From the IMG/VR virus record IMGVR_UViG_3300037502_002431, positions 1-36,918 of that record: a DNA stretch of 36,918 nucleotides. One strand, 5' to 3'. Made by a program: the position numbers and the translations under genes. The first letter of the stretch is position 1. Each line of letters opens with the position of its first letter. The notes under the pieces are model-generated. The model saw only the letters and a program-made list of their open reading frames with translations. It was not told where the DNA came from and ran no database searches. Positions 781 to 36,380 of the stretch are shown piece by piece. Source of the DNA: a virus.

Positions 781-795
781 GGAAACTGAGAACAA

Positions 796-1431: not shown

Positions 1432-1443
1432 GGGGAACACAGC

Positions 1444-2553: not shown

Positions 2554-2585
2554 TTTTTTTAAGACATATTAGGAGATAATTAAAA

Positions 2586-18116: not shown

Positions 18117-18117
18117 T

Positions 18118-18735: not shown

Positions 18736-18906
18736 ATGTCAACTCTTAAAAATACAATTTTCAATGACACGGGATATCTAGGATTACCTGCAGGTACAAC
18801 TGCACAAAGACCTGCTGGCCCTGTTGCGGGGATGCTGAGATTTAACACTACATTGGGGTATGCTGAAGTTTATACAGGAACTCAGTGGGTTAAATTTGGA
18901 TTATAA
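18736..18906 (+). CDS. Stand-alone adaptor mini-protein (56 residues)
   Basis: This short frame begins immediately after the preceding TAA and ends three bases before the next ATG. It encodes only the shared adaptor: STLKNTIFNDTGYLGLPAGT, then TAQRPAGP, MLRFNTTLGYAEVYTG and WVKFGL before the stop. It therefore contains the whole N-terminal module of its neighbours with no C-terminal binding domain. The conserved spacing and the intact frame argue that it is translated. It may occupy adaptor sites without adding a lectin, or be the remnant of a gene that lost its binding domain by clean recombination. Its tight fit between two genes makes an annotation miss likely. Confidence 0.75.
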   Translation: MSTLKNTIFNDTGYLGLPAGTTAQRPAGPVAGMLRFNTTLGYAEVYTGTQWVKFGL

Positions 18907-18908
18907 TA

Positions 18909-19778
18909 ATGGCAACACTTAAGAACACCACAATCAATGACACAGGATATTTGCAGTTTCCGGTTGGTACTACTGCTCAACGACCTGCAAGTCCAGCCAC
19001 TGGACAATCTAGAATTAATAGTGATACAAACGCATTAGAGGTATATTTAAACGGTGCTTGGACTAATGCCGCTATATACGGCGGAGACGGTACTAGTGCG
19101 GCAAGAGCGGCATTGAGTTCTGTAGCAATCAAACAGGCAAATCCTAGTGCTACTACTGGTTGGTATTGGTTAAATTTAGATGGCACTGCAAGACAATACT
19201 GGGTAGATATGGATTATAGCGGTGGTGGTTGGGTTATGGTTTTAAGTCATTATGGCGGGGTTGCTATAAATGCAGTAACTTATAGTCAATCTACTACAAA
19301 TTATAGTTATATAGGTAGTTCTACACTAAACATAGGATCTAGTAATGTATATGGTTTCTCATTTATGGCAGGTCTAATGGCATGGGATACTATTGCATCA
19401 AGAAATAATAGTGGTCGATATGTTGTTGCAATGACTGCAACATCTGGTGCAGGTCCAACTGCGGCTGCAAGAAGAAGTCGCTGGACATGGAGTGGTTGGA
19501 CAGCATCGTATCAATGGTCTAATGCGTCAGGCTTGACAAACGAAGTTGGTGGAACAACCCCTGGATTATGGTCTTACCATATTGCAGGTAACTATGGTTG
19601 GTCAGCATATGATCAAGGTGTATGCTCTACACAGTATGGAAATGCTCCTTTATGGTATGGTGGATGTTGGGACGGAAGTCCTTGGGGAGGCAATGGCGCA
19701 GGTAATTATGCAAATAATTATTTTTGGACTGGATCAGGTGGAGATTATTATGCATATGGAGCAATATACGTAAAATGA
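18909..19778 (+). CDS. Adhesin: MATLKN adaptor + fibrinogen/intelectin-like domain
   Basis: A 289-residue protein. Residues 1-52 are the adaptor. About residues 70-289 resemble a fibrinogen C-terminal-like/intelectin-like lectin domain: an AIKQANPSATTGWYWLNLDG opening, then QYWVDMDYSGGGWVMVLSH (compare the Tyr-Cys-Asp-Met...GGGWT core of that family). It ends in a Trp/Gly/Tyr/Asn-rich region with NNYFWTGSGGDYYAYGAIYV, reminiscent of the calcium and ligand-binding loops of intelectins. Only two cysteines are visible, close together near residues 239 and 252, so the animal disulphide pattern is not kept. Such domains bind sugars or acetyl groups. The stop overlaps the next ATG as ATGA. The fold is assigned from motifs only. 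Confidence 0.7.
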   Translation: MATLKNTTINDTGYLQFPVGTTAQRPASPATGQSRINSDTNALEVYLNGAWTNAAIYGGDGTSAARAALSSVAIKQANPSATTGWYWLNLDGTARQYWVDMDYSGGGWVMVLSHYGGVAINAVTYSQSTTNYSYIGSSTLNIGSSNVYGFSFMAGLMAWDTIASRNNSGRYVVAMTATSGAGPTAAARRSRWTWSGWTASYQWSNASGLTNEVGGTTPGLWSYHIAGNYGWSAYDQGVCSTQYGNAPLWYGGCWDGSPWGGNGAGNYANNYFWTGSGGDYYAYGAIYVK

Positions 19779-20026
19779 AACCCGTAGTAAATAAACTTAA
19801 AATTACTAAAAACACTAGGGTTCTTACCTCTGAAAGACATTTTGTTTATAAGTTTGAATGGTATAACAATGATACTTTATTATTATCTGAATTAAGACAA
19901 ATTCAGGCATCAGATTTAAATTTACCTATAGAAAGTTATGAAATTCAAGAACTGGTAGCGCACAAAAATATATGTTGTTTTACTATAGATATAAACACTC
20001 TATTGATTGAGGAAGTAGAAGTATAA
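19775..20026 (+). CDS. Unknown small protein within the adhesin array
   Basis: An 83-residue protein starting in an ATGA overlap with the fibrinogen-like adhesin and ending in a TAATG overlap with the glycine-rich adhesin. It lacks the adaptor. The sequence has a basic N-terminus (KPVVNKLKITKNTR), an aromatic core (FVYKFEWYNNDTLLLSELRQ) and alternating hydrophobic strands (NICCFTIDINTLLIEEVEV). I do not recognise it. Tight coupling to both neighbours suggests a fibre-assembly or chaperone role, by analogy with small helper genes beside phage adhesin genes, but this is inference. ATG 19775 is preferred over an upstream in-frame ATG at 19724, which would lie inside the previous gene. Confidence 0.6.
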   Translation: MKPVVNKLKITKNTRVLTSERHFVYKFEWYNNDTLLLSELRQIQASDLNLPIESYEIQELVAHKNICCFTIDINTLLIEEVEV

Positions 20027-21084
20027 TGGCAACACTTAAGAACACTACAGTCAATGATACGCAATTCTTTACATTGCCTGCAGGTACTACGGCACAACGT
20101 CCAGCCAGCCCTGTACAGGGTATGACACGCTATAATACAACATTAGGTTATATAGAATGGTATGATAGTGCAGGAGCAGCATGGAGACCTATATACCAAT
20201 CACCTTCTTTTAGTTTAGATTACTTAGTAGTCGCTGGAGGTGGAGGTGGAGGTGGCGGTTCTAATGCAGGTGGATACACCGGTGGTGGTGGAGGCGGTGC
20301 CGGCGGCATGTTAACAGGTACAATAAGTGGAGTCACCGTAGGAACATCCTATACTGTTACAATTGGTGCCGGAGGTTCAGCCGGCACAACGGGTGCTACT
20401 AATAATAATGGTTCAGATGGTTCTAATTCAGTTTTTAGTACTCAAACCGCAGTAGGAGGTGGAGGTGGCGGATCGGGCGGTGATCAAAATAATGCTACTA
20501 GAATAGGACGAAGCGGTGGTAGCGGTGGCGGATCAGGATACAGATCGTTATCCGGCGGCGCCGGTACAGTCGGACAAGGTAATAATGGTGGTAATGCTGG
20601 ACCTACAGAACAAGGATCGGGTGGTGGGGGTGGTGCCGGTGCCGCAGGTAGTAATGGATCTGATAGTCCGTCTCAATATACAGGTGGAAACGGAGGTAAT
20701 GGCGTAGCAAGTTCTATTACTGGAACAAGCGTAACATATGCAGGTGGTGGCGGTGCAGGTGGATTAGAATCATACGGTTATGCAGGAGCCGGCGGCAGCG
20801 GTGGTGGTGGTGCTGGTGCTGGTATAGGAGGGGCATGGTCTACCAATGCAGTAGCAGGTACTGCTAACAGAGGTGGTGGAGGTGGCGGCGGATCAAGAAT
20901 GGTTAACGGTGGCACTCCCGGCAATGGCGCCAATGGCGGCACAGGTGTAGTGATATTAAAGATTCCTAGTGCATATACAGCAACTTTTTCAGTGGGAATA
21001 ACATCAAGTGTTGATACTGTTTCTGTGCCAGGATATAAAATATATACATGTACTGCCGGTACAGGAACAATTTCATTCAGTTAA
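20026..21084 (+). CDS. Adhesin: MATLKN adaptor + one glycine-rich domain
   Basis: A 352-residue protein. Residues 1-55 are the adaptor (QFFTLPAGTT, AQRPASP, YNTTLGYIEWYDSAGAAW). From about residue 64 (LDYLVVAGGGGGGGG) to 305 (GVVILKIP) lies a glycine-rich domain with runs of Gly separated by short loops. This is the type of phage adhesin domain thought to fold as packed polyglycine-II helices, with the loops contacting receptors. The final ~47 residues (TATFSVGITSS to GTGTISFS) form a beta segment that recurs at the end of the next protein. No signal peptide or catalytic motif is seen. The likely role is receptor recognition at a fibre tip; the receptor is unknown. Confidence 0.8.
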   Translation: MATLKNTTVNDTQFFTLPAGTTAQRPASPVQGMTRYNTTLGYIEWYDSAGAAWRPIYQSPSFSLDYLVVAGGGGGGGGSNAGGYTGGGGGGAGGMLTGTISGVTVGTSYTVTIGAGGSAGTTGATNNNGSDGSNSVFSTQTAVGGGGGGSGGDQNNATRIGRSGGSGGGSGYRSLSGGAGTVGQGNNGGNAGPTEQGSGGGGGAGAAGSNGSDSPSQYTGGNGGNGVASSITGTSVTYAGGGGAGGLESYGYAGAGGSGGGGAGAGIGGAWSTNAVAGTANRGGGGGGGSRMVNGGTPGNGANGGTGVVILKIPSAYTATFSVGITSSVDTVSVPGYKIYTCTAGTGTISFS

Positions 21085-21091
21085 ATACAAT

Positions 21092-23989
21092 ATGGCAACA
21101 TTAAAGAACACAACAGTCAATGATACAGGGTATATTCAAATACCAGTAGGAACTACCGCCCAAAGACCTGCTAGCCCTGCCAATGGTTATATGCGTTATA
21201 ATACAACATCAGGACGTGTAGAGTATTATGATGCTGGATATGGTACTTGGATGAATGTTGAACGTACTGCTGCAGGTACAACTGTTGATGTAGAATATCT
21301 TGTTGTAGGTGGAGGCGGTGCAGGCGGCGGACATAGTAGTGAGCAATATTATAATGATGGAGGTGGTGGCGGCGGCGCCGGCGGCTTCAGAACAGGAACT
21401 TTTTATCCAATAACACTATTCACAAATTTTGCTATAACAGTTGGTGCCGGCGGCGCAAGTAGTGCAACAACTCCTGTAAGTGGAAGTAACAGTATTTTTT
21501 CTGGTATCACATCAGCGGGTGGTGGCGGAGGAGGTGTCGGCGCATGGAGCCCTGCAGGTACAAAGCCAACTGCAAGTAATGGTCAGGCAGGTGGCTCAGG
21601 TGGAGGCACCGCAAATAATTATAACTATCCGCAAGCGTCAGGTGGTGCAGGTAATACACCATCTACAACTCCAAGTCAAGGTAATAATGGTGGTAGTGGT
21701 GGACCAACTGGATATCAAACTGCAGGTGGTGGTGGCGGAGCCGGTACAGTTGGTGCAAACGCAACATCATCTTCATCTGGTACAGGTGGAACTGGAGCAA
21801 CTAGTGCTATAACTGGCGCAGTAGTTTGGTATGCTGGCGGTGGTGGTGGCGGTGGAACTAATGCAGGACAACCTACAGGTGCAGCCGGCGGCACTGGTGG
21901 CGGAGGTACCGGCGGAAATAATGCTGTTGGTGGTGCTACTGGAGGAGCAACAGCAGGTACTACCAACACAGGAGGAGGTGGTGGAGGTGCTGGTGGATAT
22001 ACTAGTCAACTGGCGTATGCAGGAGCCAATGGTGGCTCAGGTATTGTAGTAATAAAATATTTAAGTATATATTATTTGACTTGGGATAGTGGATTAACAG
22101 GATCTACTGTTACTCAAGGTAGTTATAGTACAACAACATTTACTGCTGGAACAGGTGTAGCATTCTTTAGTAATAGTTCCCCATTAAATGTTGATGTATT
22201 ATTAGTTGCCGGCGGCGCCGCAGGTGGAACAAGTTACGGTGATCAGGATACAGGTAAAGGCGGAGGCGGTGCTGGTGGCGTTGTAGTTGGCTCTCAAAAG
22301 AGTTTATTGATACAAACTAACTATACTGTAAGTGTAGGTAATGGAGGAGCCGGCGTTCCTAACGGAAATAATAGTGCAGGCGCAACAGGTAATGCCGGAA
22401 GTAACACAACATTTAGTGCCTTTGCTGTTACCGCAACCGGTGGTGGCGGTGGTGGTCCATCTGATAGCGCCGGCGTAGCAGGTAATGGTGGAAGCGGCGG
22501 AGGCGCCGCAAGTAGAAACGGAGGAAGTTCTGGAGGAACTTCTACACAAGCATCATACTCAGGATGGACTTCATATGGAAATAGTGGTGGTGCTCCAGGA
22601 TCAACTTCTAACAATGCTGGAGGTGGAGGAGGGGGTGGTGCTGGCGCAGCCGGCGCACAAGGTGGTACTACTATCAATAATGCTGTTGGTGGCGCAGGTG
22701 GAGCCGGCGTAAATATTGGTGCAACATTTGGAACATTAATTGGAGATAATGGCTGGGTCGCAGGCGGTGGTGGCGGTGGCTCATATAGTACATCAAGTGT
22801 TTTAGCACAAGCCGCGGGTGGACAAGGCGGTGGAGGTAATGGTACTAGCGCACAAGAATCAAATACTAGCCCTCAACCTCAGGCTAATTCTAATGGCATT
22901 GACGGTATGCCAAATAGCGGTGGTGGTGGCGGGGGTAGTTCTGAAGATGGTCAAGGTTCTCAACCATTAACACCAGGTAGAGGTGGAGCATCTGGATCAG
23001 GTGGTAGTGGAGTTGTAGTACTTAAATATCCTTCATCATACTACGCAATTACTGGTGCAGGGTTAACATCAGAAACTATACCAATAGACGCTAATTATAA
23101 AATTACTAAATTTACCTCTGGTGCAGGAACTATGAGATTTGATGTAAGCCCAACTGCTTCAGCAGAATATATTGTAGTTGCTGGAGGTGGCTCAGGTGGT
23201 GGTCAAGCAGCCGGCGCAAGTTATCATGGCGCCGCTGGTGGCGGTGGTGCAGGTGGTTTTGCAAGAGGTAACTTTGATTTTAATTTAAATGTGCCATACA
23301 ATATTACAATTGGAGCAGGAGGCGCCGGAGCATCAGCGAGTGTAGGTGCATCAGGTAGCAATAGTAACTTTCATACTATATCTTGTATAGGTGGAGGCTA
23401 CGGCGCTAGAGGTACTACAGGACAAGCAGCCGCATCTGGTGGTAGCGGCGGAGGAGCCTCAAGAGAAGCGGCTACTATAGCAACAGGAACAGCAGGTCAG
23501 GGAAATAACGGTGGCGCACAAGGAGCATCAGGCGGGGCTGGTGGAGGAGGAGGCGCAGGTACATATGGTCGTCCAGGTCAAACGTTTGGTGGAAATGGTG
23601 GAACTGGATTCCCAGTCACACTGACCGGAACACTAGCATACTATGCCGGCGGTGGAGGTGGGGGCGGTGGCGGAACAGTTTCAGGATCAGTGGGTGGATC
23701 AGGTGGTACAGGAGGTGGCGGTACTGGCGGAACTAACACAACTAACGGATCAAATGGGACAAACGCTACAACAAATACAGGTGGTGGAGGTGGAGGTGGA
23801 AGTTCAAGTCAGAGTGCATCAAGTAATACTGCCGGGGGAAATGGCGGATCAGGTGTCATTATAATTAAAATACCAAACACTTATACAGCCACTTTTTCAG
23901 CAGGCATCACATCAAGTCTAAGTACATCAATGACTGGGTTTAAAATTTATACTGTTACAGCAGGTACAGGTACTGTAACATTTTCATGA
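21092..23989 (+). CDS. Adhesin: MATLKN adaptor + three tandem glycine-rich domains
   Basis: A 965-residue protein starting at ATG 21092, seven bases after the previous stop. A 28-residue upstream extension is possible but would overlap the previous gene and break alignment with paralogues. Residues 1-55 are the adaptor. Three glycine-rich domains follow, each starting with an aromatic/hydrophobic strand before the Gly runs (VEYLVVGGGGAGGG, VDVLLVAGGAAGG, AEYIVVAGGGSGGG; about residues 68, 366, 690). Each ends with a hydrophobic strand (GIVVIKY, GVVVLKYP, GVIIIKIP; about 315, 639, 920). A ~45-residue beta linker (GLT-rich, ending GAGTM or GTGV) separates them and caps the protein. The threefold repetition suggests internal duplication. 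Receptor-recognition function is inferred from domain type. Confidence 0.8.
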   Translation: MATLKNTTVNDTGYIQIPVGTTAQRPASPANGYMRYNTTSGRVEYYDAGYGTWMNVERTAAGTTVDVEYLVVGGGGAGGGHSSEQYYNDGGGGGGAGGFRTGTFYPITLFTNFAITVGAGGASSATTPVSGSNSIFSGITSAGGGGGGVGAWSPAGTKPTASNGQAGGSGGGTANNYNYPQASGGAGNTPSTTPSQGNNGGSGGPTGYQTAGGGGGAGTVGANATSSSSGTGGTGATSAITGAVVWYAGGGGGGGTNAGQPTGAAGGTGGGGTGGNNAVGGATGGATAGTTNTGGGGGGAGGYTSQLAYAGANGGSGIVVIKYLSIYYLTWDSGLTGSTVTQGSYSTTTFTAGTGVAFFSNSSPLNVDVLLVAGGAAGGTSYGDQDTGKGGGGAGGVVVGSQKSLLIQTNYTVSVGNGGAGVPNGNNSAGATGNAGSNTTFSAFAVTATGGGGGGPSDSAGVAGNGGSGGGAASRNGGSSGGTSTQASYSGWTSYGNSGGAPGSTSNNAGGGGGGGAGAAGAQGGTTINNAVGGAGGAGVNIGATFGTLIGDNGWVAGGGGGGSYSTSSVLAQAAGGQGGGGNGTSAQESNTSPQPQANSNGIDGMPNSGGGGGGSSEDGQGSQPLTPGRGGASGSGGSGVVVLKYPSSYYAITGAGLTSETIPIDANYKITKFTSGAGTMRFDVSPTASAEYIVVAGGGSGGGQAAGASYHGAAGGGGAGGFARGNFDFNLNVPYNITIGAGGAGASASVGASGSNSNFHTISCIGGGYGARGTTGQAAASGGSGGGASREAATIATGTAGQGNNGGAQGASGGAGGGGGAGTYGRPGQTFGGNGGTGFPVTLTGTLAYYAGGGGGGGGGTVSGSVGGSGGTGGGGTGGTNTTNGSNGTNATTNTGGGGGGGSSSQSASSNTAGGNGGSGVIIIKIPNTYTATFSAGITSSLSTSMTGFKIYTVTAGTGTVTFS

Positions 23990-24002
23990 TTGAGGAATTA
24001 AT

Positions 24003-24374
24003 ATGGCACACTATGCATTTTTAGATGAAAACTATGTAGTAACCGAAGTAATTGTCGGTAAAGATGAAAGTAATTTCGATTGGGAAAGACATTACGGGGA
24101 TATTCGTGGGCAACTCTGCAAACGCACTAGTTATAATACTCGCGGTGGTGTACACGTAGAAGGAGGACAACCATTCCGTAAAAACTACGCTGGTATAGGA
24201 TATGTATACGATCCTGTGCGTGATGCATTTTATGAGCAACAGCCATATCCAAGTTGGATATTAAATGAAGAAACATGTTTATGGGAAAGCAGAGTTCCTT
24301 ATCCTGATGACGGTAAACCATACAAATGGAATGAAGAAGAATTGCGTTGGGATGAGTTACCTCCACAACCTTAA
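24003..24374 (+). CDS. Conserved small virion-associated protein (MAHYA.LDEN family)
   Basis: A 123-residue protein opening AHYAFLDENYVVTEVIVGKD, with CKRTSYNTRGGVHVEGGQPFRKNYAGIGYVYD in the middle and a Trp/Pro-rich, acidic end (PYPSWILNEETCLWESRVPYPDDGKPYKWNEE...). From memory this family is widespread near fibre genes in T4-like cyanophages and relatives, with no proven function. The aromatic-rich repeated pattern of the second half suggests a small beta domain. A GAGGA ribosome site precedes the ATG. It sits inside the adhesin array but lacks the adaptor, so it may be a separate virion or fibre-assembly component. Confidence 0.7.
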   Translation: MAHYAFLDENYVVTEVIVGKDESNFDWERHYGDIRGQLCKRTSYNTRGGVHVEGGQPFRKNYAGIGYVYDPVRDAFYEQQPYPSWILNEETCLWESRVPYPDDGKPYKWNEEELRWDELPPQP

Positions 24375-24388
24375 TAAGAGATTAAGAA

Positions 24389-25990
24389 TTGGCTGATTTA
24401 AAAAATACTAATGTTAATGATACTGGGTTTCTGAATTTACCACAAGGTAATACAAGTCAGAGACCGGTTAGTCCCACGCCAGGCACAATGCGTTTCAATA
24501 CACAAACAGGTGTTGTTGAATTTTACACAACGCAGGGCTGGGCAGAACTCACAAGTTTATCAATTAGTAGCATTTCTCCTTCAACATACTCAGGAGCAAC
24601 AAACACAACAATAACAATTACAGGAACTGGATTCTATGCCGGTTGTGCAGCAACGTTGATTAATAGGTCAAATGTTTCATTTACCCCAGGAACAACCACA
24701 GTAAACAATGATACTACTATGACGATTACTACTCCTCAAGCATTTGGGGGCAGTGATTCACCATTATCTATTAGAGTATCAACACCATTGGGATTTTCTG
24801 TAATACTAACAAATTGTTTAATAGCAGGTAATGCTCCGACGTGGGTTACAGGAGCAGGAACAGTTGCAAACATATATGACTCTGCAAGAGCATCTTATCC
24901 AAATATCACATTGTCTGCAACTGATCCTGATGGAAATGCAATTACGTATTCTTTAGTTAGCGGAGCACTACCTACCAATATGTCATTGGGTAGTAATGGC
25001 GTAATTACTAGAACAGGCACAATACCATCAGTTGCAACAACTACAACATATACATTTACTGTTCGTGCTACTGATTCTACCGGGTACACTGCTGATAGAA
25101 CATTTGATATTCTTGTATATGCACCCGTAGTTACTTCATATACAAGTACAGGTGGTTCAACATTTACAGTTCCTACAGGACTTACATCATTAAGAGTTTT
25201 ATTAGTTGCAGGAGGAGGCGGTGGTGGAACTCGGGACGTAGGTGTAAATGCATCAGGTTCTGACGGTGGTGCTGGTGGCGGTGCAGGCGGCATGATTGAT
25301 CATCCAAGTTATCCTGTAACGCCAGGCGCTATATTAAATCTATCTGTTGGCGCAGGCGGTGCAGGTGGTTCATCAGGTATGACACCTGGAGCACAAGGAA
25401 CACCAACTACATTTGATACATTGACTGCTGTTGGAGGTGGTTATGGTGGCGCCGGCCCACTTACTCCTGCAGGAAACGGCGGTCCAGGTGGAAGTGGTGG
25501 AGGCAAAGGTGGAGGTGGTGGAAGCGGAAGCCCAACAGGTGGTGGTACAGGTACACAACCTAGTCAACCGGGTGCCAGTGGAACATATGGGTATGGATTC
25601 CCAGGAGGTAACACTCCAGCATCAGGACCTCCCTATATAGGTGGAGGTGGGGGTGGAGCAGGTGGTGCTGGTAATGTAGGCAATGCCGGTGGTCCTGGAG
25701 TAGGTGGAATAGGAAGAGTTAGTGATATTAGTGGCTCCCCTGCTTACTATGCTGGTGGAGGAGGTGGTGGAGGAAGTGTAGGATCTAATGGGGCAGCAGG
25801 CGGCACAGGCGGAGGAGGAAACGGCGGTGGCACTGGATCAACTGCATCTCCTATATCTAACGGTACCGCAGGTACAATTAATACCGGCGGAGGCGGAGGT
25901 GGTGGTGCAGGATATAATGCATCAGGTGCAAGTCCTGCAGGAGGTGCAGGTGGAAATGGAGCACCCGGAATTATTTTGATTAAATACTAA
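24389..25990 (+). CDS. Adhesin: adaptor + TIG + Ig-like + glycine-rich domains (copy 1)
   Basis: A 533-residue protein with a TTG start at 24389, chosen because the adaptor (ADLKNTNVNDTGFLNLPQGN) begins exactly there; AAGAG lies 8 bases upstream. The domain order is adaptor (1-52), an IPT/TIG-like Ig domain (about 57-147; SISPSTYSGATNTTITITGT), a cadherin/He-PIG-like Ig domain (about 149-247; ATDPDGNAITYSLVSGALP, then TTYTFTVRATDSTGYTADRT), and a glycine-rich domain (about 265-533; LRVLLVAGGGGGG...GAPGIILIKY). TIG and cadherin-like folds serve as rigid spacers or adhesion modules. The glycine-rich end is the probable receptor-contact surface. The next gene is a clear tandem paralogue with the same order. 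Confidence 0.8.
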   Translation: MADLKNTNVNDTGFLNLPQGNTSQRPVSPTPGTMRFNTQTGVVEFYTTQGWAELTSLSISSISPSTYSGATNTTITITGTGFYAGCAATLINRSNVSFTPGTTTVNNDTTMTITTPQAFGGSDSPLSIRVSTPLGFSVILTNCLIAGNAPTWVTGAGTVANIYDSARASYPNITLSATDPDGNAITYSLVSGALPTNMSLGSNGVITRTGTIPSVATTTTYTFTVRATDSTGYTADRTFDILVYAPVVTSYTSTGGSTFTVPTGLTSLRVLLVAGGGGGGTRDVGVNASGSDGGAGGGAGGMIDHPSYPVTPGAILNLSVGAGGAGGSSGMTPGAQGTPTTFDTLTAVGGGYGGAGPLTPAGNGGPGGSGGGKGGGGGSGSPTGGGTGTQPSQPGASGTYGYGFPGGNTPASGPPYIGGGGGGAGGAGNVGNAGGPGVGGIGRVSDISGSPAYYAGGGGGGGSVGSNGAAGGTGGGGNGGGTGSTASPISNGTAGTINTGGGGGGGAGYNASGASPAGGAGGNGAPGIILIKY

Positions 25991-25991
25991 C

Positions 25992-27557
25992 ATGGCTACA
26001 CTTAAAAATACAAACGTAAACGACACGGGATTCTTAAATTTACCTTCTGGTAATACTCTCCAACGTCCAAGTAGTCCAGCAAATGGTGCAGCCAGATATA
26101 ACTCTACCACAAATGCTGTTGAATTTTATACTCCCGGCGGATGGGTAGCATTAACTGCTTTATCTGTAACTGGGGTTACTCCTACAAGTTATAACGGAGA
26201 AAGCGGTACATCATTTGTATTGAGCGGTACAGGATTTATACAAGGAACAACTGTAACAATTCTAAACACTTTAGGAACAACCTACTCACCCGGTACCACT
26301 ACTATAAATAATGGCGGACAAATTACTTTTACAACGCCACAAGATTTTACCGTTGCTGACGAACCTTTAAGTGTTAGAGTAACATCACCTACCGGACAAA
26401 CTGCAACGCTTACCGGTGCAATTGATTGCGGCGGCGCGCCCAGTTGGCAAACTGCTTCAGGAACACTAGCAACAATATATGATAGTTCAAGGGCTACATA
26501 TCCAACTACAATTGCTACATTATCGGCGATTGATCCTGACTCAGGGGCTACAGTAACTTATAGTATCACATCAGGTGCATTACCAACTAATGTTTCATTA
26601 GCATCATCTACGGGAGTTGTTAGTAGAACAGGTACTATCCCTTCTGTAGCCACAGACACAACTTATAGTTTTACAGTAAGAGCAACTGATAATGCTGGAA
26701 ACAATTCTGATAGAACTTTTAATATTATTGTCAAGGCGCCTGTTGTCACTTCATATACAAGTACAGGTTCTGCAACGTTCAATGTACCGTATGGTGTATC
26801 TAGTATGAGAGTACTAGTTGTGGCAGGCGGTGGTGCAGGTGGAACACGTAATAGTGGTACAGGTAGTGGTGGAACAGACGGAGGAGCCGGAGGAGGAGCA
26901 GGTGGCATGATTGATCATCCAAGTTATCCAGTAACTCCTTCAGGCACAGTCCCATTATCAGTTGGTGCAGGCGCAGCAATTAATAACGGCGGTGAATTAT
27001 ATGGTTCAAATGGAACGAACAGTGTGTTTGGATTATTGACTGCTGTTGGCGGTGGTGGTGGCGGAGCAGGACCCGGTGGCCCAGTAGCAGACGGAAGACC
27101 AGGTGGAAGCGGGGGTGGCCGAGGAGGAGGTGGTAGTCCAAGCGGCCCTACAGGTACTGGAACACAACCTAGTCAACCTGGTGATAGTGGAACATATGGG
27201 TATGGTTTTCCCGGTGGAGCGAATCCAAATGGACCTCCCTTTACAGGAGCCGGGGGCGGCGGAGCAGGAGCAGCAGGAACTCCCGGAGGAGGCGGTCAAG
27301 TTGCTCCTGGAGGAATCGGTAGAATTAGCGATATCTCAGGTACTCCAACCTACTATGCAGGAGGTGGTGGAGGAGGGGGTGGTGGCCCAACTACTACAGG
27401 TGCTGGCAACGGCGGTAATGGCGGAGGAGGTGCCGGAAATAGCGGTACCGGTTCAGTGAACACAGGTGGCGGAGGAGGAGGCGGAAACGGGTCTCCTGCA
27501 GGTGGTCCAGGTGGAGGCGGAGCCGGCGGCTCAGGGATTATTATACTAAAATATTAA
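25992..27557 (+). CDS. Adhesin: adaptor + TIG + Ig-like + glycine-rich domains (copy 2)
   Basis: A 521-residue paralogue of the preceding gene, separated from it by one base. Domains follow in the same order: adaptor, TIG (LSVTGVTPTSYNGESGTSFV), He-PIG/cadherin-like (AIDPDSGATVTYSITSGALP), then glycine-rich (MRVLVVAGGGAGG to GSGIIILKY). Long stretches match copy 1 at DNA level, for example the region encoding GMIDHPSYPVTP and TQPSQPG.SGTYGYGFPGG, while loops between Gly runs differ. This pattern indicates duplication followed by divergence in the loops. Its TAA stop overlaps the stop of the convergent oxygenase gene, both lying in the palindrome TTAA. Confidence 0.8.
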   Translation: MATLKNTNVNDTGFLNLPSGNTLQRPSSPANGAARYNSTTNAVEFYTPGGWVALTALSVTGVTPTSYNGESGTSFVLSGTGFIQGTTVTILNTLGTTYSPGTTTINNGGQITFTTPQDFTVADEPLSVRVTSPTGQTATLTGAIDCGGAPSWQTASGTLATIYDSSRATYPTTIATLSAIDPDSGATVTYSITSGALPTNVSLASSTGVVSRTGTIPSVATDTTYSFTVRATDNAGNNSDRTFNIIVKAPVVTSYTSTGSATFNVPYGVSSMRVLVVAGGGAGGTRNSGTGSGGTDGGAGGGAGGMIDHPSYPVTPSGTVPLSVGAGAAINNGGELYGSNGTNSVFGLLTAVGGGGGGAGPGGPVADGRPGGSGGGRGGGGSPSGPTGTGTQPSQPGDSGTYGYGFPGGANPNGPPFTGAGGGGAGAAGTPGGGGQVAPGGIGRISDISGTPTYYAGGGGGGGGGPTTTGAGNGGNGGGGAGNSGTGSVNTGGGGGGGNGSPAGGPGGGGAGGSGIIILKY

Positions 27558-28228
27558 TGTATTGTAGGATATAAACTAAATTGTTCTTCTGAACTTAGTT
27601 TTCTATTTTCTGAACCCATACCCAACAAAGGTCGAGTATCATATTTTAGTTCACGTTTATGACCGTTAGCCATAACATAAAACATAAAAGCACTAATATG
27701 TTCAAATCCTGTATATTTTTGGCGCCAATGATATAGATTATTGCCCTTGTAAATTACTAAATCTCCAGGCTTCTGTATAACCTTTATAATTTTCTTATCT
27801 TTAGTTTCTATTTCTAATGGCCATGGGTCAATGCTTGTGTCCGTATCAATACACAAACTAACACTAAATTCACTACTTGAACGGTCAACGTGTCTAAACA
27901 TTTGACTCCCCTTATAGTAAATCCTAGCGTATGAATACGTTGGATATACTTCTTGCCCTACCGTGTTTTGTACAATATCTTTTATTAACGTATCACTCAA
28001 TGATTCAAAACATAATGGACTATACCAACTGAAAGAATTACGTACCATTTCATCTTCAAATGGATAATCTATTTGTTTAGCACTAGGGTGTTTTATATTA
28101 GGATTATTCTTGTTAGCAGACATTGCTAAATCTCTACTCATTCTAAATTCTCTAGCCAATAGTCTGCACACATCAGGCGATATAGCATTGTTAATTATAG
28201 TAAAATCATCAGTAAAAAAGTTATACAT
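27554..28228 (-). CDS. 2-oxoglutarate/Fe(II)-dependent oxygenase (last gene of cassette)
   Basis: A 224-residue protein of the double-stranded beta-helix oxygenase type. SQMFRHVDRSSSEFSVSLCI supplies the metal-binding His113-x-Asp115. The distal His167 lies in PGDLVIYKGNNLYHWRQKY. The same layout (RHxDR...PGDxxIYKG...HWR) occurs in the third-downstream partner at 30192-30866, so the two are paralogues. These enzymes hydroxylate proteins, nucleic acids or small molecules using oxygen and 2-oxoglutarate. The classical Arg ten residues after the distal His is not seen (His there), so 2-oxoglutarate binding may rely on a different basic residue. ATG 28228 is preferred because AGGA lies nine bases upstream; a TTG two codons earlier is possible. 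It overlaps the carbamoyltransferase gene by eight bases. Substrate unknown. Confidence 0.8.
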   Translation of the reverse strand: MYNFFTDDFTIINNAISPDVCRLLAREFRMSRDLAMSANKNNPNIKHPSAKQIDYPFEDEMVRNSFSWYSPLCFESLSDTLIKDIVQNTVGQEVYPTYSYARIYYKGSQMFRHVDRSSSEFSVSLCIDTDTSIDPWPLEIETKDKKIIKVIQKPGDLVIYKGNNLYHWRQKYTGFEHISAFMFYVMANGHKRELKYDTRPLLGMGSENRKLSSEEQFSLYPTIH

Positions 28229-29894
28229 GTTCAAGTAAGTATCCTAATTCTGGTAAATACAGATAATCTATATTGGACTTTTCAAATGTTTCAATTGCAT
28301 CTTCTACAGTCTCAACAATACAATCACCTGCAAGATTGAAACTAGTATTCAATAAAATAGGGACGCCTGTAAGTTTATAAAATTCATTTAACAAATTGTA
28401 GTAATTACCGTTCTGTTCTTTTTTAAGTGTTTGTACTCTACAAGTATTATCTACATGACATATTCCAGGTACAATAGATGTTTTTGTTACAGGCACAGCA
28501 TACATCATAAATGGACTTTCATTAAGTAAACCCATGTCAAAATATTCATTACAATATTCATGTAATACTGTACCTGCAAATGGTCTGAACCACTCTCTTT
28601 GCTTAACTGTATTCACAATATCTTTTGCATTTGTAACCCTAGGATCAAATAAAATACTACGATTGCCCAATGCTCTGGGTCCAGACTCACTACGTCCCTG
28701 ATAGATTGCTATAATCTTTTGTTTGGTTAATAGTTCAGCAACGATAGTGTCGTTAACCGTTGTTACTTTTGATTTTTTACACAACTGGTCAATATTTGCA
28801 TAATTGTGGTGTAATCCTAAGTATAAACTTGTTTGAGGTTTTTTATTGTAATCTTGCGTAATATGCCTATAACTTAGTTGGGCAGCACCCATACTTGTAC
28901 CTGCGTCACTACTTATTGGCTCTATATAAATGTTCACATCTTTAGGTAGATGTTTTCTATAATAATTATTAGCAACACAGTTTAAAAAGAATCCACCTGC
29001 TAAACAAATATTTTTACACCCTGTTTTATCAATGATACGATATATTTCTTCTAGTACATTTCTTTGACAGGCTTCTTGTAATGCATATGCAAAATTGGCT
29101 TTTATTTGAAAATCATCAGTATTTAAATAAGGAAACCTATCTACAGCCAATCTGTATGTTCTTAAATCGTCATTGTCGTATGTAAAAAGAATTGGATTTA
29201 TTTTACCATCAATGACTATTTGCGGTATATTTTTATCGTGCTTACCATAAGCACTCATACCCATTACTTTGCCTGCATCCAATTCATGAAAACCAAAATA
29301 CTTAGATGTTTTTTGAAATGCTAGTGCTTCACTAGCACAATTAGTCAAATAAATCTTATCTGTTAACTGAAATTCGGCTGCGAAAGGAACATTGACCTTT
29401 TGTTCTACTAGTTCAATTCTATCGGGATATGATGCATGATAGACGCTAGATTGCTCACGACCATACGATCCTTCTTGCAATTTATGGTTATCAAAATGAA
29501 CTTCACTGCCCATACCATCTTTAATAATACATACAGCAGTATCAAAACCGCTGTTATAAAATGACTGTGCGGCATGTAGTTTATGATGGCTAGCCCAATA
29601 ATCATGTACTGTTATTGGGCTAGTATTAAACTTCTTATTAAGATGTTTTACAAAGGTACTATAAGTGTCATCGTTAGAGAATGAATCGACTGTTGTAAGT
29701 GGACCTACTCCGGCTATACTTAAATATTCACAACTATCTATATAGTTTGGTAGTTTATTGAGTACTTGAAACGGGTATGCATCATACTTTATATTAGACA
29801 ATCGTTCATTTTCTAAATGCAATACCGTTTCTCCATTACTTATAATAGTAACAGATGCATTGTGTACTCTATTAACCCCCACTACTGTTGTCAT
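28221..29894 (-). CDS. NodU/CmcH/TobZ-family O-carbamoyltransferase
   Basis: A 557-residue protein with both halves of the family. The N-terminal Kae1-like half has HNAS (11-14), HHKLHAAQSFY (metal-binding histidines 103/107), DGMG (126-129), MGMSAYGK (211-218) and CLAGGFFLNCVAN (297-309). The C-terminal YrdC-like half has SESGPRALGNRSIL (402-415), REWFRPFA (433-440) and LLNTSFN (514-520). The family makes carbamoyl-adenylate from carbamoyl phosphate and ATP and transfers carbamoyl to a hydroxyl on Nod factors, antibiotics, or, in a reported virome enzyme, 5-hydroxymethylcytosine in DNA. All hallmark motifs are intact, so activity is likely. It lies among oxygenases that could create acceptor hydroxyls. 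Length is close to the usual 550-600. The target is not deducible. Confidence 0.92.
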   Translation of the reverse strand: MTTVVGVNRVHNASVTIISNGETVLHLENERLSNIKYDAYPFQVLNKLPNYIDSCEYLSIAGVGPLTTVDSFSNDDTYSTFVKHLNKKFNTSPITVHDYWASHHKLHAAQSFYNSGFDTAVCIIKDGMGSEVHFDNHKLQEGSYGREQSSVYHASYPDRIELVEQKVNVPFAAEFQLTDKIYLTNCASEALAFQKTSKYFGFHELDAGKVMGMSAYGKHDKNIPQIVIDGKINPILFTYDNDDLRTYRLAVDRFPYLNTDDFQIKANFAYALQEACQRNVLEEIYRIIDKTGCKNICLAGGFFLNCVANNYYRKHLPKDVNIYIEPISSDAGTSMGAAQLSYRHITQDYNKKPQTSLYLGLHHNYANIDQLCKKSKVTTVNDTIVAELLTKQKIIAIYQGRSESGPRALGNRSILFDPRVTNAKDIVNTVKQREWFRPFAGTVLHEYCNEYFDMGLLNESPFMMYAVPVTKTSIVPGICHVDNTCRVQTLKKEQNGNYYNLLNEFYKLTGVPILLNTSFNLAGDCIVETVEDAIETFEKSNIDYLYLPELGYLLEHV

Positions 29895-30195
29895 TGTGCA
29901 TTACTTCATGTAATTTATTAAGTTTTCTTATATCTTCGCATAATGTTATCATTGGATATTCTATACCATTTTCTACTGTATATCCTTGAATAACAAAATG
30001 TAGTCCTGCTTTCTTGCAAAAGTCAATAAAAGGACTATCATTGAGATTATACTTAGGCCGTTCAACAACTTCAAACCTTAATTTTACCAATTCACTAAGC
30101 ATAGGTTGTCCACTATCTGCAAGTATATTGGCTATTTCTTCTGCTGCCTTTTTATGGTCATCGTTAATATTTCTATAATCAAATACTGGTATCAT
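29872..30195 (-). CDS. Unknown 107-residue protein in the oxygenase/carbamoyltransferase cassette
   Basis: A small soluble protein with an N-terminal helix (HKKAAEEIANILADSGQPM), a strand with basic residues (ELVKLRFEVVERPKYNL), then FCKKAGLHFVIQGYTVENGI and a helical end. It has no signal peptide, membrane segment or family motif that I recognise. A perfect AAGGAG ribosome site precedes the ATG. The ATG overlaps the upstream oxygenase stop as ATGA, and its 3' end overlaps the carbamoyltransferase start by 23 bases. Such tight coupling suggests it works with these enzymes, perhaps as a substrate or scaffold subunit. That is inference only. Confidence 0.65.
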   Translation of the reverse strand: MIPVFDYRNINDDHKKAAEEIANILADSGQPMLSELVKLRFEVVERPKYNLNDSPFIDFCKKAGLHFVIQGYTVENGIEYPMITLCEDIRKLNKLHEVMHNDNSSGG

Positions 30196-30866
30196 TTTAT
30201 AACTCCTTGATATTTTTTTGGAATACCGATCATTGGTCTTCCGTCATATATATTACGGTACTCGCCGTTTTCATCATTATAATGTATGAATAACTGAGCA
30301 TGATTTAAGCCTAAGAATTTCTCACGCCAATGGTCAACTTCACACCCCTTATAGATAATCATATCACCAGGGCTTAGACTTATCGGCATTCCTTCTTCTC
30401 TATCTTTTGATTCTACTACCATAGGCCATTTATAATCTGGATAAACTTTGGTATCTATATTAGATGTATCGTAGCCTAAACATATCGTAGCAGATATTTC
30501 ACAACTATCACGGTCTCTATGACGTTTAAGTTCCTGATCATATTGATATAGTCTCCAATAACTATAATTTGGCTTTAGTTTCAAATTAGTATATTGTTCT
30601 ACTTCTCCATTTAGCATCATAAGCAATGCGTCCATTAATGGATCACCGTATTTAGAATATGCTCCATATGCTTGTGGATCTTCAAAATTTCCGTCCCAAT
30701 CGGGATCGTAAATCGCTTTCTCCTGGAAACATTTAAAGTCTATTGCCCTAGCCTTGTTAATACAATAAAAATATAGTATTTGGCATGTATCAGGAGATAA
30801 TACATTTCTAATGACTACATACTTGTTTTCATTAAAAAATGCTTGTATATTTTCAATATCACTCAT
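30192..30866 (-). CDS. 2-oxoglutarate/Fe(II)-dependent oxygenase (second gene of cassette)
   Basis: A 224-residue paralogue of the 27554-28228 oxygenase. LKRHRDRDSCEISATICLGY gives His116-x-Asp118, and SPGDMIIYKGCEVDHWREKF gives the distal His179. The end (DGRPMIGIPKKYQG) parallels DTRPLLGMG in the partner. Related proteins occur in T4-like cyanophages, as I remember them, with unknown substrates. I place the start at ATG 30866: it overlaps the upstream stop as ATGA and has AGGAGA (30881-30876) nine bases ahead. An in-frame ATG at 30890 would place that ribosome site inside the gene. Confidence 0.8.
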   Translation of the reverse strand: MSDIENIQAFFNENKYVVIRNVLSPDTCQILYFYCINKARAIDFKCFQEKAIYDPDWDGNFEDPQAYGAYSKYGDPLMDALLMMLNGEVEQYTNLKLKPNYSYWRLYQYDQELKRHRDRDSCEISATICLGYDTSNIDTKVYPDYKWPMVVESKDREEGMPISLSPGDMIIYKGCEVDHWREKFLGLNHAQLFIHYNDENGEYRNIYDGRPMIGIPKKYQGVIK

Positions 30867-31615
30867 TTGAATGGTTCTCCTAACACCCACATAACAAGAC
30901 TGTATCTTTTTCCACTAGTTACGGGGGTAACACAATGAGGTATAAAACTCGGGAACACTATAATACTACCCTGAGGACGTATCTCTGTGCATTCATGTAG
31001 TCTGTCACCGTCATAGTGCGGACCAAAATCAAACTTTAAGTTTCCGCCTTCATATGTATCTGGCACATTTAAGTTAAGAGTCATAGATATTTTTCTAACT
31101 TTACCTACAAATTTTGGTTCTGTAACATAACCTTCTGGCAATCTATCTTTGTTAAATGATTGTTCTGTTACCCCGTAAATGTATCGTTTATAGGCAGCAA
31201 AATGGTCACTACTACCATCACTATGCCAGCCATAAAAATGGTTATTTTCATATACGCTGAACTGTAAATTTTCTGCTAAATCAAACTGCCAGTTCCACCC
31301 CGCTTGACGATTAGCAGTATGTATATATGGGAATAACAAATCATACACCCATTGGTCTTGTATCCAAGATATTTTACTATCTCTGATGTATGGTCTATCT
31401 AAATTCTTACTACGTATTTCTTCAAGGGTCATTTCATTTTGGGGCAAAGCATTAGGCATACTTTGTTTTTCATAACTGCCACCAGTTTTACCGTGTATAC
31501 TTTCCCCTTTGGATTCTAATACAGATATGTTTTTAAGACCCAAATCTATAATCTTTTGACAATCTTCGGCAGAAATCACAGATTTGAAGTAATAATAATT
31601 GTATTTGAGGTTCAT
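30863..31615 (-). CDS. Prolyl-4-hydroxylase-like 2OG-Fe(II) oxygenase (first gene of cassette)
   Basis: A 250-residue protein with the P4Hc/PKHD-type layout. It opens YYYFKSVISAEDCQKIIDLG; ENNHFYGWHSDGSSDH carries His131-x-Asp133; KISMTLNLNVPDTYEGGNLKF is the typical central strand pair; QGSIIVFPSFIPHCVTPVTSGKRYSLVMWV carries the distal His227 and the 2OG-binding Arg237 exactly ten residues later. All cofactor ligands are intact. The family hydroxylates proline or other residues in proteins, or small molecules. It is only distantly like the other two oxygenases of the cassette. ATG 31615 is chosen because family homology starts there; a GTG at 31672 would add 19 unlikely residues. No strong ribosome site is seen, only an AAATAAGTA element just upstream. 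Confidence 0.85.
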   Translation of the reverse strand: MNLKYNYYYFKSVISAEDCQKIIDLGLKNISVLESKGESIHGKTGGSYEKQSMPNALPQNEMTLEEIRSKNLDRPYIRDSKISWIQDQWVYDLLFPYIHTANRQAGWNWQFDLAENLQFSVYENNHFYGWHSDGSSDHFAAYKRYIYGVTEQSFNKDRLPEGYVTEPKFVGKVRKISMTLNLNVPDTYEGGNLKFDFGPHYDGDRLHECTEIRPQGSIIVFPSFIPHCVTPVTSGKRYSLVMWVLGEPFK

Positions 31616-34700: not shown

Positions 34701-35632
34701 CAGGTGTGTTTACAACTGTGAGTGGAAACGGAAGCGCACTAACTGATCTAAATGCAAGTAATATTAGTAGTGGTACTCTTGCACAAGCAAGATTAGCAAA
34801 TGCATCATTAACAGTTAATGGTCAATCTATTTCATTAGGTGGTAGTGGTACAATTACAGCAAATACTACACAAACATTAACATTTGGTAGTTACTTGACT
34901 GGTACAAGTTTTAACGGTGGAACTGCTAATACTATTGCAGTGGACGCAACTAGTGCAAACACCGCAAGCAAGGTTGTTGCTAGAGATAGTAGCGGTAACT
35001 TTAGTGCAGGTACAATTACTGCAACATTAAGCGGTGCAGCAACAACGGCTGGCACAGTAACAACGGCAGCACAACCAAATATTACATCAGTTGGAACATT
35101 AAGTTCATTAGCAGTAACAGGTAACATTACAGCGGGTAACTTGTCGGTATCAACTGGCACAGTAACATTAGGTACATTAACTACTGGTGGAAACACTACA
35201 GCAGGTACAGTAACAGGTAATTGGACTTTAAGTGCAGGTTCAAGATGGAACGCTACATATGCTGACTTGGCAGAAAAATATGTTGCTGATGCTGATTATG
35301 AGCCAGGTACTGTATTAGTGTTTGGTGGCGAACAAGAAGTAACAATAGCAAATGATTTTGATAGCACACGTGTAGCAGGTGTTGTTACCACAAATCCTGC
35401 GTTCTCTATGAACAATGAATGCATTGGTGATCATGTTGCTGAAATTGCACTACAAGGTCGTGTGCCGTGTAAAGTTGCTGGAACAGTTCAGAAAGGCGAT
35501 CTAATGGTAAGTGGTTCTAATGGTCATGCTGTTGCTAATAATATGGCACGTGCAGGAACTATCATTGGTAAAGCATTGCAAAACTTTACAGGTACAACGG
35601 GTGTAATTGAAGTTGCAGTTGGTAGATTCTAA
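31736..35632 (+). CDS. Giant tail fibre (1298 residues) with C-terminal processing/chaperone-like domain
   Basis: The N-terminus (SLILKQESSANVPTPPAGKG, then TLFLNASDQVVVKDSAGN) is a recurrent virion-attachment segment of T4-like aquatic phages. About residues 180-350 hold a Gly/Ala-rich beta region (IGLVGEGVANG, GVGNYAFYIQNGGIASIENA). YFIGNGSQLTGIDATAIQNG (near 445) and a DAATKQYVDD...GMRILVKNEANSAHNGIY module (about 746-915) match the S74 fibre closely. AAQPNITSVGTL units lie near residues 160 and 1110. From about residue 1175 (YADLAEKYVADADYEPGTVL, then VFGGEQEVTIAN...RVAGVVTTNPAFSMN) a C-terminal domain resembles the self-cleaving G2/IMC-type domains of phage appendages; this assignment is tentative. 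A GGGAA ribosome site precedes the ATG. Confidence 0.8.
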   Translation: MSLILKQESSANVPTPPAGKGTLFLNASDQVVVKDSAGNTSTFPTVSASGNTQVFYNDAGSLTGDASFTFNKTNDTVTIANLTVTGTLSAGDISVSSIANGNSNVDIIGTGGNVTVSVGGNANVLTVTGTDVIASGNITAANANLGNVVTGNYFTGVLTYAAQPNITSVGTLTSLYVGATSSNVDFANAKAIASQDNVGNSAADNIGLVGEGVANGTNSAITGIGLLGHARVANATKATGVQGQAFVTNTADTGAAVGIRGYSVDTHSGGYNIGILGNAMGSGVGNYAFYIQNGGIASIENATFWDLTDNSNAALTFSSTGKANIFGIETTDNAEGIFTSGYLNVVGNISAAGIKTNNYYYANGNPVDFQQAAGSNTQLQFNNANDFGASANLTFDTATNLLNVTGTANVTTLNASSTIGATGNVTGGNIVTGGQVNAVGNVTAAYFIGNGSQLTGIDATAIQNGTANVKTFLNANVAISSNGNANVVVVTGAGANVTGTLDVTGNITAGNVSASVGAFTANSSANNFNATTHVTAGNVYANSGTVGATTGTFTGNVSAGNLNATTAVVASTLTSNVSTGTSPLTVTSTTRVANLNVSYANVSDFGVVTAQSTGAYYPIFVNGSSTANYALAANSGFSANLANGGLTATTFIGNLDGNVLGALANGTSSLSIPASGGNVNISAAGNANVFTVTGTGANVTGTLNATGNLTTGGVLTVSGTGVSSIAGNLDMTSNNIINLATPVNSTDAATKQYVDDVAQGLHTHDSCNAATDGTLATISGGTVTYDNGTSGVGATLTTTGSYTTIDGVTLSNGMRILVKNEANSAHNGIYDRTSSTVLTRSSDFDTPTEMAGGDFTFVTAGTLYDNTGWVMTDPVTTVGTSPVPWVQFSGAGTYTAGTGLTLTGSQFSITNTAVSAASYGNGDRVASFTVNAQGQLTAASNTVITANAANLTGTTLASSIVTSSLTTVGTLGTLNVSGNANVGNIGAAAGVFTTVSGNGSALTDLNASNISSGTLAQARLANASLTVNGQSISLGGSGTITANTTQTLTFGSYLTGTSFNGGTANTIAVDATSANTASKVVARDSSGNFSAGTITATLSGAATTAGTVTTAAQPNITSVGTLSSLAVTGNITAGNLSVSTGTVTLGTLTTGGNTTAGTVTGNWTLSAGSRWNATYADLAEKYVADADYEPGTVLVFGGEQEVTIANDFDSTRVAGVVTTNPAFSMNNECIGDHVAEIALQGRVPCKVAGTVQKGDLMVSGSNGHAVANNMARAGTIIGKALQNFTGTTGVIEVAVGRF

Positions 35633-36380
35633 ACCCCTCATATCTATTCTAACCTTTTTATTATTATTCCTATCTAATGGAATAAAGGCTGATCCATTAC
35701 CTAACGTAACCGCACAAGCCTGGTTAGTAGCAGACGAATTTGGAAAAATATTAGATGGTACACATACTAATGAAGTACGTAGTATTGCAAGTATTACTAA
35801 ATTAATGACTGTTATGGTAGTATTAGATAGTAACGTTTCACTAACTGAAACATTACCTAAACCATTGTACAACAGAAAAGTAAACAGGCAAACACTAATA
35901 GATTTGGCTATTGTTAAATCTGACAACAATGCTGCCAAAATGCTATGTGACACGTATCCATATGGCTATCTTGATTGTATTACAGCAATGAATGCTAAAG
36001 CAGAAAAATTACAAATGTATAAAACAAGTTTTGTTGATGCAACAGGATTAATGAATGACAACGTTAGCACAGCAGAAGATTTAGTTAAATTAGCAAAGGC
36101 TGCAAGTGATTATAAAATAATTGTAGAAGCAAGTAATAAAAGCCATATAATATGGCCGCAAACTAAAACTACAAAGCCAATACAATATAACAATACTAAT
36201 ACTCTTGTAGGTAAAGGTTATGATTTTATTGTAAGCAAAACAGGCTTTATCAGCAAAGCAGGTGGATGTATTGTTTTTATTATTAATACTGTTCGTGGTC
36301 AGAGAACAGTTATATTGCTAGGTAGTAAGAATACCAAAACAAGAATCCCTGAAGCATTCCTCATATCATCATTATACTAA
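35607..36380 (+). CDS. Exported D-alanyl-D-alanine carboxy/endopeptidase (peptidase S11)
   Basis: A serine penicillin-binding-type enzyme with all three active-site motifs: Ser62-Ile-Thr-Lys65, Ser105-Asp-Asn107 and Lys211-Thr-Gly213. These enzymes trim or open peptidoglycan peptides in the periplasm. A signal peptide is visible: basic residue, hydrophobic ISILTFLLLFLSN, then a GIKA-DP cleavage site. At 257 residues it is the catalytic domain only, closest in size to PBP7-like endopeptidases, without the C-terminal anchor. No ATG is available before the motifs; TTG codons at 35607, 35613 or 35619 could start it, all inside the fibre's last codons, so translation is probably coupled. Likely roles are lysis help or cell-wall change during infection. 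No separate holin is seen nearby. Confidence 0.85.
   Translation: MKLQLVDSKPLISILTFLLLFLSNGIKADPLPNVTAQAWLVADEFGKILDGTHTNEVRSIASITKLMTVMVVLDSNVSLTETLPKPLYNRKVNRQTLIDLAIVKSDNNAAKMLCDTYPYGYLDCITAMNAKAEKLQMYKTSFVDATGLMNDNVSTAEDLVKLAKAASDYKIIVEASNKSHIIWPQTKTTKPIQYNNTNTLVGKGYDFIVSKTGFISKAGGCIVFIINTVRGQRTVILLGSKNTKTRIPEAFLISSLY

Follow-up and report, generated by a model that had tools for sequence, protein, structure and literature searches.

Which molecule would be modified when three predicted oxygenases and a carbamoyltransferase are encoded side by side in the fibre region of a phage? This question is raised by the IMG/VR virus record IMGVR_UViG_3300037502_002431, analysed here over its whole length as a 36.9-kb fragment of 36,918 nucleotides (hereafter the window). 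At positions 27554-31615, five overlapping genes (g1 to g5) form a cassette predicted to encode three 2-oxoglutarate (2OG)-Fe(II) oxygenases, an O-carbamoyltransferase (CT) and a small conserved protein. This cassette has a conserved and exclusive genomic linkage, in unrelated phages, to one type of adhesin carrying the glycine-rich domain PF21722 (Gly_rich_2). Among the accessory genes of marine T4-like phages, those for 2OG oxygenases rank with the most frequent, and only guesses have been offered on what they do (nitrogen sensing, DNA repair); the linkage names a concrete candidate substrate, the glycine-rich tip of a tail fibre, in cultured phages.

Cassette layout and linkage to a glycine-rich adhesin

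The five minus-strand open reading frames announced by an earlier reading of this DNA, made without database searches (the sequence-only reading), were all found, with ATG starts at 31615, 30866, 30195, 29894 and 28228. When these starts are used, the gene overlaps of 4, 4, 23 and 8 bases that it had given are matched exactly; alternative longer GTG or TTG starts are available for g1, g2 and g5, with an upstream context that is no better. As many contigs hold homologues with conserved motifs, the cassette genes are not chance reading frames. The 3' end of g5 also shares 4 bases, tail-to-tail, with the plus-strand adhesin gene at 25992-27557. The genes and domains concerned are the following, FC designating the family of g2 and g5.

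30863-31615, minus strand: g1, PKHD/prolyl 4-hydroxylase (P4H)-like 2OG-Fe(II) oxygenase, 250 amino acids, HxD...H...R intact (Pfam PF13640 at E 3.5e-12, profile matches, alignment)
30192-30866, minus strand: g2, 2OG oxygenase of predicted prolyl hydroxylase domain (PHD) fold, family FC, PHROG 2954 (labelled 'ferrochelatase'), 224 amino acids (alignment; paralogue of g5)
29872-30195, minus strand: g3, conserved partner protein of 107 amino acids, PHROG 10937, proposed accessory or adaptor (alignment, AlphaFold2 (AF2))
28221-29894, minus strand: g4, TobZ/NodU-type O-carbamoyltransferase, 557 amino acids (Pfam domains, motifs)
27554-28228, minus strand: g5, second 2OG oxygenase of predicted PHD fold, family FC, 224 amino acids (alignment, AF2, Foldseek)
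25992-27557, plus strand: proposed substrate, adhesin of 521 amino acids with an anchor N-terminus, an Ig-like domain and a C-terminal glycine-rich domain (PF21722 at E 3e-17, PF05345; position conserved in relatives)
26757-27554, plus strand: PF21722 Gly_rich_2 domain of this adhesin, 40% Gly and 8.3% Pro
26847-26905, plus strand: CT-linked adhesin motif R-N-x-G-x3-G-G-T-D-G-G-x-G-G-G-A-G-G (single match in the window; IMG/VR scan)
24389-25990, plus strand: second glycine-rich adhesin, 533 amino acids, a possible further substrate (PF21722 at E 4e-12; C-terminus 66% identical)

CT relatives were found in 144 phage records, mostly of cyanomyoviruses (best identity 55%), and by alignment scan at about 400 places in IMG/VR, the best 80 of which were analysed as loci; an IMG/VR scan with g4 as a single protein gave no matches, because its patterns were specific to the window. 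The sequence-only reading had staked its proposal on the five genes recurring together, and a conserved set was indeed found in related loci. With OX standing for a further oxygenase, the order OX-FC-g3-CT-(extra PF13759 oxygenase)-FC is kept in L008 and L009, whose CT is 58% identical to g4, and close variants of it occur in L024, L029, L030, L031, L037 and L052. The five genes of the window are all co-directional, whereas in the cyanophages S-CAM8, S-TIM4, S-SSM5 and S-MS29 the CT gene is transcribed divergently from a set of 2OG oxygenase genes, FC members among them.

Within the CT clade of the window, CT or a CT-FC(-OX) unit runs nearly always tail-to-tail into a glycine-rich adhesin gene, wherever the contig reaches that far, with an overlap of 3-53 bp or, when FC/OX genes come after CT, a distance of 0.9-1.9 kb. 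The exceptions are the L032-L038 branch and loci L080-L083, in which the adhesin lies 5.7 kb away and in the same direction. In S-TIM4, ORF_41 is the glycine-rich adhesin that converges with the CT, and its glycine-rich domain is poor in Lys and Arg. All nine CT-linked adhesins tested by Pfam carry PF21722, on differing N-terminal anchors, and among isolated phages an adhesin of the S-CAM8 type, at a cover of at least 45%, is present in exactly the 12 records that have a close CT. When an FC oxygenase and a glycine-rich adhesin were each counted if within 3 kb of CT, 47 dereplicated CT loci had both states known: FC and adhesin occurred together in 18, FC without adhesin in one, adhesin without FC in none and neither in 28 (Fisher p 4e-12, a significance inflated by kinship). 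The CT tree offers two to three independent pairs, in all of which both traits change at once; neither changes alone, but the number is too small for significance.

The adhesin motif points in the same direction, with its one match in the window and none in 100 shuffles. Across IMG/VR (2.9 million viral contigs) it was found in 23 stretches, all 23 on contigs that bear a CT, including three on contigs outside the earlier set where the CT was verified afterwards. Since the motif was built from CT-linked adhesins, recovering those is circular, and what is informative is the absence of any motif contig without CT together with the three new ones that have it. Records that have PF21722 but no linked CT gave no match, even when up to two mismatches were allowed. 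In whole phage records, the similarity of FC proteins to the cassette family increases with proximity to a PF21722 domain (Spearman -0.86 between similarity and distance), and the ten best FC homologues all lie within 3.6 kb of such a domain.

The fibre region of the window also holds, at 17316-27557, an array of adhesin genes with a common MA(T/D)LKNTxxNDTG anchor and differing C-terminal domains, namely LamG-like, F5/8 type C and several PF21722 glycine-rich ones; it has the look of a repertoire of alternative tips for receptor binding. A long fibre gene precedes it at 13938-17303, with a Peptidase_S74 intramolecular chaperone domain at its end.

Predicted activities of the cassette proteins

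The three HxD...H oxygenases named by the sequence-only reading have intact motifs. In g1, assigned to PF13640, the iron triad and a 2OG-binding arginine ten residues past the last histidine are conserved in alignment (H131, D133, H227 and R237); a profile search of the PDB with it gives PKHD hydroxylases and, as weak matches, prolyl 3- and 4-hydroxylases, and the gene adjoining the FC gene of Pelagibacter phage Mosig encodes a protein 51% identical to g1. Regarding g2 (H116-D118...H179) and g5 (H113-D115...H167), paralogues sharing 31% identity, the assignment comes not from Pfam but from the HxD...H motif, which is invariant, and from a fold predicted with confidence. No Pfam family was found for either at E<0.1, nor any ferrochelatase domain, and a PDB sequence search with their profile returned chance matches, the fold being given by structure prediction. 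The triad is invariant in 23 of 23 aligned FC sequences; there is no conserved Arg or Lys about ten positions past the distal histidine, and arginines are invariant two residues past it (R169) and at R102. The AF2 model of g5 (predicted local distance difference test (pLDDT) score 89) adopts a double-stranded beta-helix, for which the top Foldseek matches in the PDB are the Pseudomonas putida prolyl hydroxylase PPHD and PHD2 (E 2e-10, probability 1.0). Because of the invariant triad and of this match, the FC family is, as modelled, a 2OG oxygenase family of prolyl-hydroxylase fold.

The ferrochelatase identity given to g2 and g5 by PHROGs is ruled out by the absent Pfam domain and the prolyl-hydroxylase-like fold. 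More broadly, the labels 'ferrochelatase' (PHROG 2954 and 3531) and 'DNA endonuclease' (PHROG 274 and 2297) cover 2OG-oxygenase-like proteins, one of which, S-CAM8 10485-11000 (locus L002), matches PF13640 at E 2e-11. In phage databases, 2OG oxygenases are thus hidden under the label 'ferrochelatase' and, in some cases, under 'DNA endonuclease V'; the heme/iron explanation proposed for 2OG-ferrochelatase neighbours in pelagiphages depends on the former label (PMC9599517).

For g4, both Pfam halves are above cut-off (PF16861 at E 2.1e-59; PF02543, Kae1-like N-terminal, at E 3.9e-18), and the protein contains VHNAS, HHKLHA, SSDAG, GRSESGPRALG, REWFRPFA, HVDNTC and LLNTSFN. The active-site motifs among them (HHxxHA, SSDAG, GPRALG, FRPFA, NTSFN) align with solved relatives and are invariant among phage homologues. 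The NodU-family carbamoyltransferase of the sequence-only reading is therefore upheld at the level of the TobZ/NodU superfamily, with motifs intact, and not as NodU itself, since g4 scores 132 bits against the NodU equivalog profile, far below the cut-off of 1000. From its sequence, g4 is a TobZ/GdmN-type O-carbamoyltransferase, predicted to transfer a carbamoyl group to a hydroxyl via carbamoyl-adenylate.

The partner protein g3 is modelled by AF2 with a pLDDT of 86; a fold search of the PDB gave nothing for it at E<0.1, and its sequence matches are weak and at chance level. It is found with oxygenases in L008, L029-L031, L037, L052, L080, ACG-2014b and S-RIM50.

Proposed modification of the adhesin and rival explanations

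We propose that the five genes constitute a modification cassette for the neighbouring glycine-rich adhesin. The three 2OG oxygenases would hydroxylate residues of its C-terminal glycine-rich tip, most plausibly prolines in Pro-Gly motifs; the TobZ-type CT would then carbamoylate the new hydroxyls or, in part, native Ser/Thr/Tyr; g3 would assist as an accessory or adaptor protein; and the decoration would tune or protect the tip that contacts the receptor. Proline is favoured as the residue because of the prolyl-hydroxylase fold and of the Pro-Gly density, which is 3.1 per 100 amino acids in CT-linked glycine-rich domains vs 1.5 in others (p 4e-6, uncorrected and with kinship ignored). Pro-Gly is the sequence favoured by collagen-type prolyl 4-hydroxylases. 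The case for proline as the hydroxylated residue is suggestive only. Raw proline content was tried as a marker and set aside as partly specific, Pro-Gly counts separating the domains better.

It appears to us rather probable that some, at least, of the cassette enzymes act on the adhesin. The prospects are about even that the cassette hydroxylates and then O-carbamoylates the glycine-rich tip, a statement in which we infer substrate, order of steps, residue and benefit. The full sequence of hydroxylation followed by carbamoylation ranges from doubtful to evenly poised, according to the strictness with which the residue is specified. At its most specific, the proposal is of a hydroxylated proline (or other residue) that is then O-carbamoylated, giving an enzymatic protein side-chain O-carbamate, which is not known from any organism, that tunes or protects host recognition and is exchanged between lineages as a module of adhesin plus enzymes; this we put forward tentatively, as somewhat doubtful. 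The acceptor of the CT could instead be native Ser/Thr/Tyr or a sugar. If true, the proposal would extend the known types of protein modification by one, and host recognition by abundant marine phages would rely on enzymatic post-translational chemistry. It would also bear on the prediction of host range from sequence, because an unmodified recombinant adhesin may behave unlike the real one.

Several observations weigh against modification of the adhesin. The carbamoyltransferase family of g4 has known members that act on small molecules, glycans or 5-hydroxymethylcytosine (5hmC), and is not known to act on proteins. Glycine-rich domains are also Pro-rich in HTVC023P, beside FC/OX genes and no CT, and in contig G015 without a linked CT. 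The L032-L038 loci, a sub-branch of the CT clade of the window, lack both the adhesin and the oxygenases; the CT of L033 adjoins glycosyltransferases and an epimerase. Distant FC homologues have replication or nucleotide genes as neighbours (e.g., S-CAM22, P-SSM7), so that the FC family is not confined to adhesins and its linkage to them was rejected as a universal rule. Finally, kinship makes the reported p-values too small.

The L032-L038 branch and the context of L033 suggest that the CT is able to work in a glycan setting and make sugar substrates a live alternative. The oxygenases and CT would then act on lipopolysaccharide (LPS) or exopolysaccharide precursors or on a fibre-bound glycan, altering the surface of the infected cell or making a carbamoylated sugar. 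NodU-type enzymes carbamoylate sugars, which counts in favour of such a role, as do the HTVC008M CT, located in a sugar cluster, and the S-CAM1 CT (L089 8004-12206, 39% identical), which lies in a fibre region with heptose-kinase, phosphoheptose-isomerase and nucleotide-sugar-epimerase genes. The S-CAM1 locus is a possible glycan counterpart of the cassette. Host-recognition clusters of pelagimyophages likewise carry many LPS genes (PMC7029224). However, no glycosyltransferase or sugar gene stands beside CT in the window, L008, L009, L024, L029 or S-CAM8, and CT loci of the glycan type have neither FC oxygenases nor the adhesin motif, so that we regard glycan modification, with hitchhiking one of the two main rivals, as quite unlikely here. 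The sequence-only reading had named adhesin proteins or glycans as target; it is partly supported overall, the adhesin being much strengthened by the linkage to PF21722 and to the motif.

Hitchhiking is in our view unlikely. Here, unrelated accessory genes (metabolic oxygenases, CT) with no action on the adhesins would accumulate in a hypervariable host-recognition region and be carried along when adhesin modules recombine. In its favour, this region is known to vary strongly and to hold many accessory genes (PMC7029224); cyanophages carry many scattered 2OG oxygenases, with proposed roles in nitrogen/2OG metabolism or DNA repair (PMC3037559, PMC9602691, PMC9146016); and independent trait changes on the CT tree are few. 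Yet the linkage is specific to one glycine-rich domain type and not to fibres generally, spanning differing adhesin N-termini and two lineages; moreover, the genes overlap, and the set is kept at 50-58% protein divergence.

Phage DNA, the alternative target of the sequence-only reading, lost ground. Carbamoylation of hydroxyls made on DNA bases by an oxygenase or a hydroxymethylase has a precedent, as a carbamoyltransferase of the same superfamily yields 5-carbamoyloxymethylcytosine in vitro, and in the MetaGPA study that describes it modified contigs are marked by co-occurrence with thymidylate synthase-family genes (PMC8670742). Such genes accompany the viral 5hmC carbamoyltransferase and none was found here: PF00303 (thymidylate synthase/dCMP-hydroxymethylase) is absent from the window, from contigs G004 and G028 and from seven complete phage records, four of which bear the CT or cassette (S-CAM8, S-TIM4, S-MS29, S-SSM5). 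A Tet_JBP search was also empty, weak evidence as its control was uninformative, and both fold and profile liken the oxygenases to prolyl hydroxylases; DNA hypermodification is therefore very improbable. A role of the CT as auxiliary pyrBI/aspartate carbamoyltransferase in pyrimidine biosynthesis has a negligible chance of being correct. This label is printed for two cyanophages (PMC9146016, PMC10436341), and the phage of the latter is Nanhaivirus ms29, which to judge by its name corresponds to the S-MS29 record; its CT, 55% identical to g4, may be the printed gene. Nevertheless, g4 belongs to another protein family (PF02543 with PF16861, TobZ/GdmN-type structures, no aspartate carbamoyltransferase match), by which its identity as aspartate carbamoyltransferase is refuted.

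Related systems, phage lineages and neighbouring genes

The closest known counterparts of the cassette are in the cyanophages S-CAM8, S-TIM4, P-RSM4 (known through search matches only), S-SSM5 and S-MS29, which have a homologous CT (52-55% identity), 2OG oxygenases of the FC and other types, and a PF21722 adhesin convergent with the CT. Their genes are annotated as unrelated auxiliary metabolic genes, as 'ferrochelatase', 'DNA endonuclease' or hypothetical, and no joint function for these regions was found in the literature searched. Among characterized enzymes, TobZ, GdmN and NodU share the two-domain architecture and active-site motifs of g4; their substrates are antibiotics and Nod factor, whereas the genetic context of g4 points to a protein adhesin. 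The MetaGPA enzyme is also viral and of TobZ type, with a hydroxyl made by another enzyme as its proposed acceptor (PMC8670742), but it is linked to thymidylate synthase and acts on DNA, in contrast to the adhesin and oxygenase linkage of the window. PPHD and PHD2 have the fold of g5, and the PKHD hydroxylases YbiX/PiuC correspond to the profile of g1, at only 13-18% sequence identity to the cassette oxygenases.

Precedents that resemble the proposed adhesin modification in the way they work come from viral collagen hydroxylation, where a structural protein is hydroxylated by virus-coded enzymes and then decorated. They are the mimivirus L230 lysyl hydroxylase/glucosyltransferase (PMC9546862, PMC5802723) and a P4H of a Chlorella virus cited in PMC9301287. 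The viral collagen systems use a collagen Gly-X-Y substrate and a sugar, unlike the carbamoyl group here, and are not homologous as systems. The Pfam match of the cassette-linked adhesins is Gly_rich_2 and no collagen family.

Regarding the phage itself, the head genes of the window (prohead protease and major capsid protein, 1-3782) are closest to those of the jumbo T4-like phages Pseudomonas PA5oct, Sinorhizobium Phosso and Vibrio 2.275.O, with 65-68% identity for the major capsid protein; the fragment therefore probably comes from a large phage outside Kyanoviridae, and its assignment to cyanophages was rejected. The major capsid protein is 75-78% identical to those of the L008 and L029 contigs vs 36% to that of S-CAM8, yet the CTs of the window and S-CAM8 are 55% identical and the adhesin tip motif is common to both. 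This fits an exchange of cassette and adhesin tip as a module between two distant lineages.

Tryptophan halogenase genes adjoin adhesins of the motif type or sit in the same 2OG-oxygenase clusters, and halogenation may be another adhesin modification:

L029 16069-17535: tryptophan halogenase, PF04820 at E 5e-94
L107 3282-4751: tryptophan halogenase by sequence resemblance only
L091 1-1478 and L138 418-2019: tryptophan halogenases as annotated

The fibre region of the window is flanked by accessory genes that are envelope-directed:

4534-5235: fatty-acid desaturase
3870-4526: SGNH-like protein (no Pfam match)
35607-36380: D-Ala-D-Ala carboxypeptidase, PF00768

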